From Desulfobacteraceae bacterium CG2_30_51_40 (GTDB taxonomy: Bacteria; Desulfobacterota; DSM-4660; Desulfatiglandales; Desulfatiglandaceae), in assembly GCA_001874005.1 (NCBI GenBank), contig MNYJ01000207.1, positions 1 to 38,388 on the forward strand: a stretch of 38,388 nucleotides of DNA. The letters run 5' to 3'. Made by a program: the position numbers and the translations under genes. Within the stretch, counting starts at the first letter, position 1. The number at the start of each line of letters is the position of its first letter. The notes beneath the pieces were generated by a model. It ran no database searches and was not told the origin of the DNA. It saw only the letters and a list, made by a program, of their open reading frames with translations. Shown piece after piece: positions 12,296 to 17,335 of this stretch.

Positions 12296-12641
12296 TTAAG
12301 GATCCTCCTTTCACCGGGCGCATCAGATTCGCCCTTTCTCAGTCAGTCTTCGTATGAATTAAAAAACCCGGGGTAGGTGCGGCTTCAGCCGCACGGAAAC
12401 CGTGGGCCCTGCGCCTGAAGATGCACGTGCTGAAGCTGATTCCTGGTCTGCATGTCCTGATCTGCGCAAAGCCACCCCACAATTATTGAGCTGATGCCAT
12501 CCGGCTGTAGCAGCACCACTTAAGCCTGATATATCAAGGTCTTCCGGTCTCAGCACTGGAAAGGATGGCCGTCTCGCACTTTAACAACCTGTTTAAAAAC
12601 CTCTGTTAGCAGGCGGAGGGGAAATGCCAAATCATTGACCC
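12296..12641. other. Intergenic region with repeat A3
   Basis: The gap between the acyl-CoA ligase start and the radical SAM stop. It holds family A copy A3 (12350-12496). The remaining 145 bases (12497-12641) show no gene, promoter or terminator I can support. A 65-codon minus-strand frame over the repeat is not coding. Confidence 0.5.
12350..12496 (+). repeat. Dispersed repeat family A, copy A3
   Basis: The most complete direct-orientation copy. It reads 'cgtatgaatt', GTAG with TGCGGCTTCAGCCGCA, a middle part with 'gctgattcctggtctgcatg', then 'tcctgatctgcgcaaagcc' and 'caattattgag'. Its middle part matches the truncated A4 and A5 copies, so A3 is the best reference for the family. Confidence 0.85.
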
Positions 12642-13823
12642 TCACGCCCATTTACCCGGTATCCGCCTCCCGCAAAAGCCGCACAGTCCGTCTTTTATAT
12701 GAAATACGCCGATCCGATATCCCTTTCTTTCAACAAGGAGTTTGCCGCATCCCGGGCAGTAGGTGTGGGAAGAGGAGTGACCGGGGACGTTTCCTATATA
12801 GACGTGATTGATTCCCTCGCTCATAGCCTCTTCCCTCAATTTCTCAAGCACCTCCACCGGTGTTGCTGGAAGCCTCGCAAGCCTGTAGCGGGGGAAAAAC
12901 CGCAGCAGGTGAAGGGGTCTGTCAGGCCCCAACTCCTTTACAATCCAGCGGCACATCCGTTTCATCATCTCAGTTGAATCCACGTATGTCGGAACGACAA
13001 GGGTGGTTATCTCAAGCCACACTCCTTCCGCCGCTATAACCTTCAAGGTTTGAAGCACAGGGTCAAGGGTGCCGCCGTTCAACGCGCGGTAGATCTCGTC
13101 GCTGAATGACTTGAGATTGATATTGGCCGCATCCAGAAACCGACAGAGTTCTCTGAGAGGCGTTTCATTGATATAGCCGTTTGAGACAAGGACATTCATA
13201 ACTCCCCTGGCCCTGGCGGCTCGGGATGTGTCCCTTGTGTATTCGTAGAAGGTTACCGGCTCAGCATAGGTATAGGCCATGGAAGGGATTTTCCCATCAA
13301 TCGCCTGAGAAACCGCCTCCTCGGGAAAAAGCTCAACGTGATCTACCTCTTCGGGCTTTTTCTGGGATATCCCCCAGTTCTGGCAGTTAAGGCATCTCAG
13401 ATTACATCCGGTAGCGGCAAGGGAAAAAATCGAAGTACCTGGAAGAAAATGGAAAAGGGGCTTTTTTTCTATAGGGTCTGTGTGCACGGCACATGCGTTT
13501 CCATAAGCAAGCGAATAGAGCTTTCCCTTTATATTTACCCGGGAGCGGCAAACGCTTCTGTCACCAGGTCTTAGATAGCACCGGTTGGGGCAGATATTGC
13601 ACTGCACGTCTTTTCCGCTTGAGGAATAGTGGGAGCCCTCAATAGACCATTTCCAGAGTTTCGCAGGGGCGTCGTTTCTGAAGACCTCACCCCTGATATC
13701 CTTCCCGGTCTCGGTAATGCCAGGAAAGGAATCCCCGAGGGTGGGATACATAAGGGCCGCCAGCCCCAAGCCCACGGTCTTCAAAAACTTCTTTCGGGTA
13801 AGTCCTTGTGTTATGGTCTCCAT
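12642..13823 (-). CDS. AmmeMemoRadiSam-type radical SAM enzyme with export signal
   Basis: The 393-residue protein has a Tat-like N terminus (TRKKFLK, then a hydrophobic stretch to about residue 27). A Cys-rich block CNICPNRCYLRPGDRSVC (75-92) is followed by the radical SAM cluster C140-x3-C144-x2-C147 in TGCNLRCLNCQNW, and by C-terminal pairs CPGCGK and CGFCGR. This layout matches the radical SAM component of the AmmeMemoRadiSam group, whose biochemical role I do not know. The signal has Arg-Lys rather than Arg-Arg, so export is inferred. The same-strand neighbours upstream are a membrane spermidine-synthase-like protein and an exported AMMECR1 protein. The Memo component is missing from the window. 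Confidence 0.85.
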   Translation of the reverse strand: METITQGLTRKKFLKTVGLGLAALMYPTLGDSFPGITETGKDIRGEVFRNDAPAKLWKWSIEGSHYSSSGKDVQCNICPNRCYLRPGDRSVCRSRVNIKGKLYSLAYGNACAVHTDPIEKKPLFHFLPGTSIFSLAATGCNLRCLNCQNWGISQKKPEEVDHVELFPEEAVSQAIDGKIPSMAYTYAEPVTFYEYTRDTSRAARARGVMNVLVSNGYINETPLRELCRFLDAANINLKSFSDEIYRALNGGTLDPVLQTLKVIAAEGVWLEITTLVVPTYVDSTEMMKRMCRWIVKELGPDRPLHLLRFFPRYRLARLPATPVEVLEKLREEAMSEGINHVYIGNVPGHSSSHTYCPGCGKLLVERKGYRIGVFHIKDGLCGFCGRRIPGKWA

Positions 13824-13937
13824 GACTCATCCGGGGGGGTTAAACGCGTTTCCCGTTTTCGGAATCGTTATGCCATCTTTACAGCAGGCCCATACAGCGC
13901 TCTCGACAGCACCCATTCAGAAAAACAGATGACATCT

Positions 13938-14097
13938 TTTCACTCTAACGGTCATGCCCGGGTGGGGCACAACGAAAGATGAAAATCACCCCCACCCCTC
14001 CCTCCCCCGTCGAGGGGGAGGAAATAATGCCAGCGCATCCCGACGTTCGACTATTACGGGGGGTAGAGCAAAGGCAAGGGGCATTTTCATATAAACT
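13938..14097 (+). repeat. Dispersed repeat family B, copy B2
   Basis: Block order as in B1: 'cactctaacggtcatgccc', the C-rich/gtcga/G-rich hairpin, 'aataatgcc', and the 'cattttcatataaa' terminus. Its right end coincides with the stop codon of the spermidine-synthase-like gene (14096-14098), so the element sits immediately downstream of that gene and could act as its transcript end or as an mRNA-stabilising hairpin. Confidence 0.85.
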
Positions 14098-16231
14098 ATC
14101 CATGACGAGAGCCTCCTTTTCGCGTAATTATTATTATACTGGATATCTTTACGATTATCAAAGCAATAACAGATCGCTCCATACCCATCCAGGGTATAAG
14201 AAAGGCGCCTGTCACCAGCGCGCCAAGGGCTGCGCCCCATAGGTCAGCGGCAAGGCAGCCTGCAAGCGGGCTCTTTTCTTCTCCTAAAAAGAAGGCCGCC
14301 GCCGGAAACTGGAACCCGCACACAGCCGAAAACAGCACAGAGTAAGCAAGGAATATCCATGGCTCAGGACTGAGCTTGGAGCCGGCCATCCAGAGCCAAA
14401 ATACGCAAAGAAGCAACAGAACCAGAAAATCCGACTGCAGGAGTCTCTTGCCGGGATTAAGCCTTCCCATACGCGATCTCCCGATGATCGCACCCGGCAG
14501 TAGCCCGAATAGAAAGGCGGTTACTATGGCCCCCATCTGAAGATAGAGATAGCCGTAAACGGCCTGGAAGGAAAAGAGAACAAGCATCTCCGTTCCCATG
14601 ATGGAAAACCCGGTTGAAAAGAGGACGTACTCGCCTTTTTTAATGAATATGAGATAGGAAAGCGCCAGCGCTGCGAGTATGGCAAAAAAGACTACCGGCG
14701 AACTACCGTGCCTGCTGAACCATTGCTCAAAGACCGTCTTCATGAGTCCTGGAGAAAAATCGCTATTCAAAGAAGGCTCTCTCTCTGAGAACTGATTGAG
14801 GCTCCTCACGCGCTCCGGGGTGGCATTGCCGTAAAAATAGCCTTCAATGTATTCACTCGCTATGCCTTTTTCCTTGAGCCTTTCCGGGATATCATCAAAA
14901 AGATCTGCATCACTGCAAAGAAAATAGGCCCTCTCTCCCGGAAGGACGAGGACATTTCGAAAATGCCCGGCTGTGGTGCTGAACAGGGTCGAAAACTTTC
15001 TCCTTTCAGCTCGGCTTTGATAGTTCTGAGAATAATCAAGCGCGAAAGCGAATACACCCTTATCCCTCATGGCTTTTTTAACGAGCGCCATAGCTTCCTC
15101 TGTATAAAAACGGTTTACCTGAAAGCTATCCGGCTCGGGAAGATCAAAGATTATGGCATCGTATCTTTTTTCCGTCCCGCTGAGATAAAGCCTCCCGTCG
15201 GCATTGATTATTCTTGCCCTGGCCCAGCCGCTCAAAAGATTATATTGCTTAGCGGCCTCTGTCAGGGAAGGATCAAGCTCGACATAGTCTATTGATCGTG
15301 GATTGTATTTTGCAACCTCATTGAGAGTCTCACCCAGCCCCCCCGAAACCAGGAGTACATCCTCAACCTTATCCAACTGAGAAAGGATATAGTGGACCTT
15401 CTCGGCGCTCCCCGCCAGATCCCTGTCCGAATAAAGAGGCACTCCAGCCTCCCATATTGTCTTTTGATCGGCCTCCTCGCTTATGATCACCCTGCCGTAA
15501 GGAGACTCTATGTATCGCAGGATCTCGCCATACTGACCCGAAAGGGTCTTCTTTTCAAGGCCCGGCCACAAAGATACCAAAAAGAACGAGGCGGCAAGAG
15601 TATATGAAAGGAAAAGCTTCACCGTGCTCCCTGACCTTCTTAAGCCTGCCAAGGACAAAAAGACAAGCGGAGCGGAGGTAACGGCAATTGCTTTAAAAGG
15701 ATGCAGGACATAAACCAGGATAAAGCTGAACAGAATACCGCCGACTATATCGCCAATGGAGTCAAAAAGATAGAGTGCAGCGCTTTCAAGTGGATTATCC
15801 ATTCTCCTTGAGACGCTCTGTATTATGGGAAGGATGAACCCTGAGACAAGGCAATATGGGCCGCTTGCTGCAATAATAAAGAAAAGTATCTGATAAAATC
15901 CCTGGGATGTGCCGTGTAGAAAGGCCGCATCCCGCAAAAGGCGTATACCCGCTATCTGGGCCAGGGGCATCAGGGCCGCAACCAGAAGAAGTAAGCTCAA
16001 AAGGCTTAGCGACGGCCTTGAGATGGATTTTGCCAGCAAGGTACCAAGCCCGCTCAAAAGGAGCCATGAAAAGATGCTCAGAGAGAACGTTATCTCATTT
16101 CCATGAAATTGAGAGAGGAACTCCCTTAAGGTAAGAAGCTGGGTTGTGACGGAGGAAATACCTAGAAAGACCAGAGACAGCCGCTCAAAATCAAAAAATA
16201 TCCATCGCGACTTACCACCGGTAACATTCAT
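14096..16231 (-). CDS. Membrane-bound spermidine synthase-like protein
   Basis: The 711-residue fusion has about seven N-terminal membrane segments (residues about 13-215), a soluble aminopropyltransferase/methyltransferase-like domain (about 235-480) and about six C-terminal segments (about 505-700). In the soluble domain SGGLGETLNEV (about 293) fits the nucleotide-loop glycines, YVELD the ribose-binding acid, NADGRLYL the adenine site and DLPEPD the catalytic aspartate motif; LNSDFSP is usual in membrane forms. Family members transfer aminopropyl groups or are uncharacterised. It lies between AMMECR1 and radical SAM genes on the same strand, 61 bases after the former. Its true substrate is unknown. 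No good ribosome binding site was seen. Confidence 0.8.
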   Translation of the reverse strand: MNVTGGKSRWIFFDFERLSLVFLGISSVTTQLLTLREFLSQFHGNEITFSLSIFSWLLLSGLGTLLAKSISRPSLSLLSLLLLVAALMPLAQIAGIRLLRDAAFLHGTSQGFYQILFFIIAASGPYCLVSGFILPIIQSVSRRMDNPLESAALYLFDSIGDIVGGILFSFILVYVLHPFKAIAVTSAPLVFLSLAGLRRSGSTVKLFLSYTLAASFFLVSLWPGLEKKTLSGQYGEILRYIESPYGRVIISEEADQKTIWEAGVPLYSDRDLAGSAEKVHYILSQLDKVEDVLLVSGGLGETLNEVAKYNPRSIDYVELDPSLTEAAKQYNLLSGWARARIINADGRLYLSGTEKRYDAIIFDLPEPDSFQVNRFYTEEAMALVKKAMRDKGVFAFALDYSQNYQSRAERRKFSTLFSTTAGHFRNVLVLPGERAYFLCSDADLFDDIPERLKEKGIASEYIEGYFYGNATPERVRSLNQFSEREPSLNSDFSPGLMKTVFEQWFSRHGSSPVVFFAILAALALSYLIFIKKGEYVLFSTGFSIMGTEMLVLFSFQAVYGYLYLQMGAIVTAFLFGLLPGAIIGRSRMGRLNPGKRLLQSDFLVLLLLCVFWLWMAGSKLSPEPWIFLAYSVLFSAVCGFQFPAAAFFLGEEKSPLAGCLAADLWGAALGALVTGAFLIPWMGMERSVIALIIVKISSIIIITRKGGSRHG

Positions 16232-16292
16232 GGCGCGTTATCCGGCAAGCAGTCACTGGGCGGCCTTTCCCGTGATCGGATGAGTATCCGTC

Positions 16293-16997
16293 TTATTCTT
16301 CAAAGGCCTGAACCTGGTATGTTGAAACCTGGAGATCGCCTTTTCTCCAGGCATCAGGCGATAATCCGGCCTTGAGGCAGAGATGGGCAAGAAATTCCTC
16401 TTTTTTGGGAAGCTGCTCCCAGACCTGGGGCAGGAAGGTGGCTTGATGATAGCCCTTCTTGAGGATCACGCCGTCTATGCCTGGCCGCAGTTTGGCAAGC
16501 AGGTCCTTCTCACCGCCGTAAGGAAGGTCTTTCGGCTCGGTAAGAATGCTGACTTCTATTTTTATATCCTTGAACTCATTTTTATTTAAGGGGCTGAAAC
16601 GCGGATCGCGAAACGCGGCATTTATGGCGTTTTCCTTTACACCTTCCAGGAGGCTCTCCCGGGGGATGATATGGCCTATGCAGCCTCTGAGGCTTCCTCC
16701 CTTTGTGATCGTTACAAATGCGCCGCGCCTTTCTTCAAATACCCCTAATTCAACTCCGGCTTCGTCCGGCCCAGGATCGGTAGATTTGGTAAAAAGCTCC
16801 TTTTCGATCGTCTTTCTGGCAATCGAAATCAAGCGGCGGCCCTGCTCCTCTGAAAGCCTGCCTTTTTCTTCCATGACAATCTCCTTTGAAACAGTCGCTG
16901 AGAGGGCCTCTTGAGACCCGTCCTCAGAAAATGAACAAACCGGGAAAAACAATACGGAAACAAACGCGATGAAAATCAACCTCGGCATGATAGCCAT
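16293..16997 (-). CDS. Exported AMMECR1-domain protein (AmmeMemoRadiSam component A)
   Basis: The first 24 residues form a Sec-type signal (MAIMPRLIFIAFVSVLFFPV followed by CSFSED), without a clear lipobox. The rest is an AMMECR1 domain: LSEEQGRRLISIARKTIE (49-66), the signature LRGCIG (103-108), NAAFRDPRFSPL, and SILTEPKDL. AMMECR1 proteins have no established enzymatic activity, but the invariant LRGCIG suggests a catalytic or ligand site. Most bacterial members are cytoplasmic, so a signal peptide is notable. It is the first gene of a minus-strand set with the spermidine-synthase-like and radical SAM genes. Start may be 16997 or the second ATG at 16988. Confidence 0.87.
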   Translation of the reverse strand: MAIMPRLIFIAFVSVLFFPVCSFSEDGSQEALSATVSKEIVMEEKGRLSEEQGRRLISIARKTIEKELFTKSTDPGPDEAGVELGVFEERRGAFVTITKGGSLRGCIGHIIPRESLLEGVKENAINAAFRDPRFSPLNKNEFKDIKIEVSILTEPKDLPYGGEKDLLAKLRPGIDGVILKKGYHQATFLPQVWEQLPKKEEFLAHLCLKAGLSPDAWRKGDLQVSTYQVQAFEE

Positions 16998-17106: not shown

Positions 17107-17115
17107 TATCAGCTA

Positions 17116-17257
17116 GTGTCCATCCGGAAATGAGATAGTTTCGTCGAGTTCAAGGCGGGCGATAATTTTAACCACAGGAATACATTGACGTATTTCGAGG
17201 ATTAAAATTTGAGCCCAACGCCGAAATCGGTGAAAATATCCATTTCCGGACGGACAC
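17116..17257 (+). mobile_element. 142-bp MITE (family C), copy 1
   Basis: Starts GTGTCCATCCGGAAATG and ends CATTTCCGGACGGACAC, imperfect terminal inverted repeats of about 17 bases. The left flank is TA; the right flank is CA, which I read as a mutated TA. It has the same length as, and only a handful of differences from, the copy at 30374-30515. The two halves are imperfectly complementary along their whole length, so the element can fold into one long hairpin. It encodes nothing and would depend on a transposase in trans; TA targets suggest an IS630/Tc1-mariner type. Confidence 0.88.
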
Positions 17258-17316
17258 CAGCTAAATAATTGGGGAATGGTCTTGCGCAGATCAGGACATG
17301 CAGACCAGCAATCAGC
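17258..17316 (-). repeat. Dispersed repeat family A, copy A4 (core only)
   Basis: 'aataattgggg', 'gcgcagatcaggacatgcag' and 'accagcaatcagctt' match the inverse of A3. The REP-like hairpin is absent. The MITE lies directly against its left edge. The repeat ends about 20 bases before the nth start, so repeat-derived sequence forms the nth leader. Confidence 0.82.
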
Positions 17317-17335
17317 TTAATAAGGATTATACACG

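Follow-up and report, generated by a model that had tools for sequence, protein, structure and literature searches.

Three adjacent genes and the question they raise

Proteins of the AMMECR1 and Memo families range from archaea to humans, and we know of no established joint function for the two. In the DNA analyzed here, an AMMECR1 gene with a signal-like N-terminus, a gene for a membrane protein with a spermidine-synthase-fold domain (referred to as SpdTM) and a gene for an AmmeMemoRadiSam-type radical SAM enzyme follow one another. This arrangement raises the question of whether an AmmeMemoRadiSam set operates outside the cytoplasm. The window, meaning the whole stretch of 38,388 nucleotides, is the entire contig C160 of a 3.44-Mb genome.

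The three open reading frames were confirmed on the minus strand, and the family matches bore out the initial annotation, which had described three such genes in a row. AMMECR1 (AmmeMemoSam_A; positions 16293 to 16997; 234 aa in its long form) matched TIGR04335 with 209 bits (cut-off 99) and also PF01871. SpdTM (positions 14096 to 16231; 711 aa) matched PF01564 (Spermine_synth) with 60 bits, in residues 280 to 395 only. The radical SAM enzyme (positions 12642 to 13823; 393 aa) matched TIGR04337 with 347 bits (cut-off 220) and also PF04055, and its CxxxCxxC cysteines (C140, C144 and C147) were invariant in the alignment.

Conservation of the three-gene arrangement

Scanning genomes with the SpdTM alignment yielded 80 loci, nearly all of them titled Desulfobacterota or Deltaproteobacteria; the loci behind the counts given here come nearly all from metagenome-assembled genomes. 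Relatives in the same order share the arrangement of a signal-bearing AMMECR1 gene, SpdTM and a long radical SAM gene. In loci with room for a neighbor, SpdTM was immediately preceded by AMMECR1 in 64 of 65 and immediately followed by the radical SAM gene in 58 of 63; both counts are conditional on SpdTM. Since dozens of genomes repeat it, the arrangement is far beyond chance, and the three genes can be regarded as one conserved unit. When AMMECR1 was taken as the starting point within the order, SpdTM was found downstream of 23 of 26 signal-bearing genes but of none of the 3 signal-less ones (p = 0.005). Therefore, the expected co-occurrence of signal-peptide AMMECR1 with the membrane protein gene was indeed observed.

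In the SpdTM tree, which took in six window-type rows, the split between the window type and a sister type was fully supported. In the sister type, a single polypeptide composed of signal peptide, Memo and AMMECR1 (TIGR04336 plus TIGR04335) is followed by SpdTM and then by the radical SAM enzyme; in the variants L188, L196 and L202, Memo and AMMECR1 are encoded by adjacent genes. Of 198 genomes of the phylum, 40 contained a match (E ≤ 1e-90) in a search for more distant SpdTM relatives. Among the inspected loci of such relatives, which belong to other families of the phylum, radical SAM genes with an RR signal adjoin the SpdTM relative in L283, L285, L287 and L290, though not in every case.

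Whether the cluster is functionally tied to the genes around it was also considered, and this was rejected: nth, metG and an exonuclease/endonuclease family gene are conserved neighbors, joined by an MBL-fold hydrolase or AFOR at some loci, and synteny can account for all of them. The cluster is bracketed by a pair of 64-nt inverted repeats (88%; positions 12433 to 12496 and 17255 to 17318). The 27-nt core of this repeat occurs 47 times in the genome when up to 3 mismatches are allowed, and the repeat therefore represents a dispersed family. Furthermore, just upstream of AMMECR1 there is a MITE-like element (positions 17111 to 17262) whose inverted ends are 22 nt long; the end sequence has 171 genomic matches, often near contig ends.

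SpdTM has a spermidine synthase fold but lacks a key aspartate

The AlphaFold2 model of SpdTM (pLDDT 84, pTM 0.86) consists of seven transmembrane helices, a soluble domain and seven further helices. When the positive-inside rule was applied to these helices, an N-inside orientation was favored in 80 of 80 homologues, and the soluble domain (residues 222 to 511; positions 14699 to 15568, minus strand) is therefore predicted to be periplasmic. Its best Foldseek matches were aminopropyltransferases (E = 1e-10; TM-score on the target, 0.67). An internal repeat formed by the two seven-helix halves was also considered and was discarded, because the profile comparison was not significant.

The fold of the aminopropyltransferase-like domain proposed in the initial annotation was thus supported by PF01564, AlphaFold2 and Foldseek. 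However, its residues make it very unlikely that SpdTM is an aminopropyltransferase. The aspartate of the GGGDGG motif, which binds decarboxylated SAM, is Leu299 in the window and was never Asp in the 80 homologues (Leu, Met, Ile or Phe, or missing). The position of the catalytic aspartate (D363; Asp in the window) is occupied by Asp in 49, Asn in 28 and Ser in 3 of them, and Glu318 and the DGR motif (residues 345 to 347) are retained. SpdTM also scored below the equivalog cut-offs (PRK03612, 102 of 472 bits; speE, 47 of 250), which together with the loss of the GGGDGG aspartate ruled out a plain spermidine synthase. In a plant spermidine synthase, the D103I replacement of the same motif aspartate abolished aminopropyl transfer, and methyl transfer from SAM was gained (PMC3725402). 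For SpdTM itself, we infer SAM binding.

The AMMECR1 gene has a conserved internal start codon

Signal calls were based on inspection, hydropathy and comparison across loci. The AMMECR1 N-terminus (MAIMPRLIFIAFVSVLFFPVCSFSED...) appeared Sec-like by inspection and hydropathy, with a Kyte-Doolittle value of 3.1 over 12 residues; read by eye, the sequence MAIMPRLIFIAFVSVLFFPVCSFS contains a putative signal peptide of about residues 1 to 24. Apparent n-, h- and c-regions of such a peptide were seen by the same means on both AMMECR1 and Memo. The hydropathy peak and the signal-peptide–Memo–AMMECR1 fusions of the sister group argue for the Sec signal that had been claimed for AMMECR1.

An in-frame ATG (16874 to 16872) was detected within the gene just ahead of the AMMECR1 domain, 6 nt after the Shine-Dalgarno (SD) sequence AAAGGAG (positions 16881 to 16887, minus strand; -8.7 kcal/mol). 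Translation from this ATG would give a probable short, cytoplasmic AMMECR1 of 193 aa (positions 16293 to 16874). Among related genes with a separate, full-length AMMECR1, an internal ATG with a strong SD was present in 41 of 41, in 35 of them with identical spacing to the domain. The mean energy of the duplex with the anti-SD was -10.2 kcal/mol, compared with -6.7 kcal/mol for synonymous codon shuffles (Wilcoxon p = 1e-12, a nominal value given that the rows are related); for other internal ATGs of AMMECR1, used as a control, it was -2.6 kcal/mol. The conserved ATG and its strong SD suggest that one gene probably yields both an exported and a cytoplasmic AMMECR1. The earlier claim of export is thus backed by the comparison, but it probably has to be widened, since the second, internal start is the stronger one.

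Of the 25 fusions, 22 retain an ATG where Memo joins AMMECR1, mostly with an SD. The genomes of all three fusions without it (L193, L207 and L212) also have a separate AMMECR1 gene, compared with 1 of the 22 with an ATG (p = 0.0017). Because these three fusions occupy two places in the SpdTM tree, the tie between loss of the internal ATG and a separate AMMECR1 gene is a weak correlation, which is suggestive but no proof.

The genome content is of interest for a gene with two products. The whole genome has a single AMMECR1 gene, whereas Memo and the full radical SAM enzyme are each encoded twice, in both cases with one signal-less copy. A two-product AMMECR1 gene would supply both an exported and a cytoplasmic set.

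The radical SAM enzyme carries a putative Tat-type signal

The N-terminus of the radical SAM enzyme (METITQGLTRKKFLKTVGLGLAALMYP...) is Tat-like, yet its motif TRKKFLK (positions 13779 to 13799, minus strand) has RK in place of RR. In the window type, the first arginine is invariant and is followed by Lys in 31 of 33 enzymes and by Ile or Ser in the others, but never by Arg. In the sister type, by comparison, a true RR motif was found in 24 of 24. The (S/T)RxxF motif is otherwise nearly invariant, and TatC is encoded in the genome (252 bits). We read RK as a putative derived Tat-type signal. The Tat-like start noted in the initial annotation is therefore backed by the sister group, while the motif in the window itself has no twin arginine. 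The radical SAM paralogue of this genome, encoded on contig C67, is short and lacks the N-terminal extension.

A second radical SAM family with Tat-like N-termini, mostly of the KR type (TKREFL), was observed in the same order (L041, L043, L044, L046, L048 and L090); in L090, this gene is divergent from a signal-peptide Memo gene. In the literature searched, no description of Tat-exported radical SAM enzymes was found.

A variant locus is L091, in which a relative of SpdTM is fused to an RnfG/NosR-type FMN domain and a NapH-type ferredoxin membrane domain (L091:902-7792). As in the window, the SpdTM relative has a TIGR04337 radical SAM gene and an exported-type AMMECR1 as neighbors, the latter here as a lipoprotein-type Memo–AMMECR1 fusion. 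L091 differs from the window by the C-terminal FMN and NapH-type domains, by a gene for an exported thioredoxin-like protein upstream, and by a radical SAM enzyme without N-terminal extension; the layout therefore varies. Judging by its domains, the fusion may provide a path for electrons across the membrane.

The Memo genes are on other contigs

No Memo gene is present in the window, and the only Memo genes of the genome are on contigs C55 and C183. The C55 protein (303 aa; TIGR04336, 226 bits; cut-off 26) starts with MMRTIYIALRVFVLIFIFLPAAAQSQ, by appearance a signal peptide, and its gene is unlinked to the three-gene cluster; the C183 protein (183 bits; same cut-off) is signal-less. Many relatives in the order also have signal-peptide Memo genes distant from the cluster. 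Therefore, the description of the set as being without Memo holds for the gene order but not for the genome, and in the sister group Memo is even fused to AMMECR1.

A dual start in the signal-peptide Memo gene on C55 was considered and rejected, since its internal ATG has no SD. At nine other loci (L090, L096, L098, L256, L257, L258, L262, L263 and L264), a signal-peptide Memo gene contains an internal ATG in frame, which follows a strong SD and stands just before the Memo domain, making it a possible second two-start gene. Furthermore, a third Memo type of ~405 aa with an N-terminal extension of ~110 residues was found in several genomes of the order (L104, L105 and L106).

Proposed model and alternatives

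We propose that the cluster probably encodes an AmmeMemoRadiSam system that is exported and acts in the periplasm, on the outer surface of the cytoplasmic membrane, accompanied by a parallel cytoplasmic set that is served by the internal AMMECR1 start. According to this model, AMMECR1 and Memo, the latter encoded in trans in this genome, would be exported by Sec, and the radical SAM enzyme would be exported in folded form, including its Fe-S cluster, by means of the Tat-type signal. The soluble domain of SpdTM, as a SAM-binding-type domain rather than an aminopropyltransferase, would be on the same side and work with the three exported partners, perhaps in a complex, and the substrate modified by the exported set would most likely be membrane-bound or periplasmic. 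The signal-less AMMECR1 from the internal start would serve the cytoplasmic set together with the signal-less Memo paralogue and the extension-less radical SAM paralogue. Fusions, the RR motif of the sister group and the predicted periplasmic domain of SpdTM thus lend partial support to the idea, put forward in the initial annotation, of one pathway at the membrane or in the periplasm, with two exported proteins and a membrane protein encoded between them.

Regarding AMMECR1, it could be argued that the protein is cytoplasmic only, that the internal ATG is its true start, and that the signal-like upstream frame is rarely or never translated. Of 36 genes, 34 have a stronger SD at the internal than at the upstream start (mean of the upstream SD, only -5.3 kcal/mol), AMMECR1 of L158 lacks the upstream part with the signal, and in L196 and L202 a signal-less AMMECR1 stands beside a signal-peptide Memo. 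However, the upstream frame has a median open length of 66 codons, compared with 8 and 21 in the other frames, and encodes a hydrophobic stretch in nearly every locus (mean Kyte-Doolittle peak, 2.7); moreover, signal peptide, Memo and AMMECR1 are a single polypeptide in the sister group. By these sequence measures, the upstream signal-coding part is real, and we consider a purely cytoplasmic AMMECR1 improbable.

It is similarly unlikely that the radical SAM enzyme and the SpdTM domain are cytoplasmic, with TRKKFLK being an uncleaved tail that is not exported, or a membrane tether, and with an inverted topology prediction. This would agree with the general knowledge that SAM and reductant are cytoplasmic, with RK in place of RR, and with the extension-less enzyme of L091, but it would leave the exported partners on the opposite side of the membrane. 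The nearly invariant (S/T)RxxF motif, the RR of the sister clade (24 of 24) and of some distant relatives, and the positive-inside rule, which places the SpdTM loop outside in 80 of 80 homologues, also argue against it. Least of all do we expect the three genes to be mere neighbors that share an inherited order and do not act together. Plain synteny also maintains nth, metG and the exonuclease/endonuclease family gene next to the cluster, but the sister clade keeps the three genes together despite other flanks and a different gene architecture, and elsewhere in the phylum SpdTM relatives are located beside Tat-type radical SAM genes.

If the exported set acts at the membrane surface as proposed, the question arises of how a radical SAM enzyme obtains SAM and electrons outside the cytoplasm. 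We know of no SAM pool or low-potential electron donor in the periplasm. As a tentative scheme, which we regard as possible but rather doubtful as a whole, Tat would deliver the enzyme with its Fe-S cluster, SpdTM would supply or handle a SAM-type cosubstrate, the FMN/ferredoxin module would bring in electrons in some relatives, and AMMECR1 would feed both sets by its two starts. Proposals made by Burroughs et al. in 2019 reportedly include nucleotide-base and isoprenoid modification. For a set acting at the membrane surface, RNA or nucleotide targets would be unlikely, and a membrane or envelope substrate would be favored. The two-start AMMECR1 gene offers a simple handle, since the starts can be removed separately, which would show the compartment in which AMMECR1 is needed.

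Comparison with known systems

For Memo-Ammecr1 systems, Burroughs et al. 2019 is cited in PMC7159879. A literature search found no exported AmmeMemoRadiSam form or two-start AMMECR1, with subscription papers mostly outside its scope, so that an earlier description is possible. We file the components as known, and the proposed exported form and two-start AMMECR1 as new as far as the searched literature shows.

SpdTM has the same fold as spermidine synthase/polyamine aminopropyltransferase (PF01564; PRK03612; MFS_SpdSyn), with Glu318 and DGR kept, and is membrane-fused like the PRK03612 type, to which its match is weak (102 of 472 bits). It differs by the absence of the GGGDGG aspartate in 80 of 80 homologues, by Asn instead of Asp363 in 28 of 80, and by the 14 transmembrane helices around the domain. 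Plant putrescine N-methyltransferase evolved from spermidine synthase; with the D103I exchange, in which a hydrophobic residue takes the place of the same aspartate (PMC3725402), it offers an analogy to SpdTM at one position only, within the shared fold.

All three components of the AmmeMemoRadiSam system (TIGR04335, TIGR04336 and TIGR04337) are present in the genome above the curated cut-offs, and the Memo–AMMECR1 fusion with a neighboring radical SAM gene in the sister group is a further likeness to this system. The set described here departs from this system in that AMMECR1 and Memo have predicted signal peptides, the radical SAM enzyme begins with a putative Tat-type signal, a membrane partner with a spermidine synthase fold is conserved, and so is an internal start within AMMECR1.
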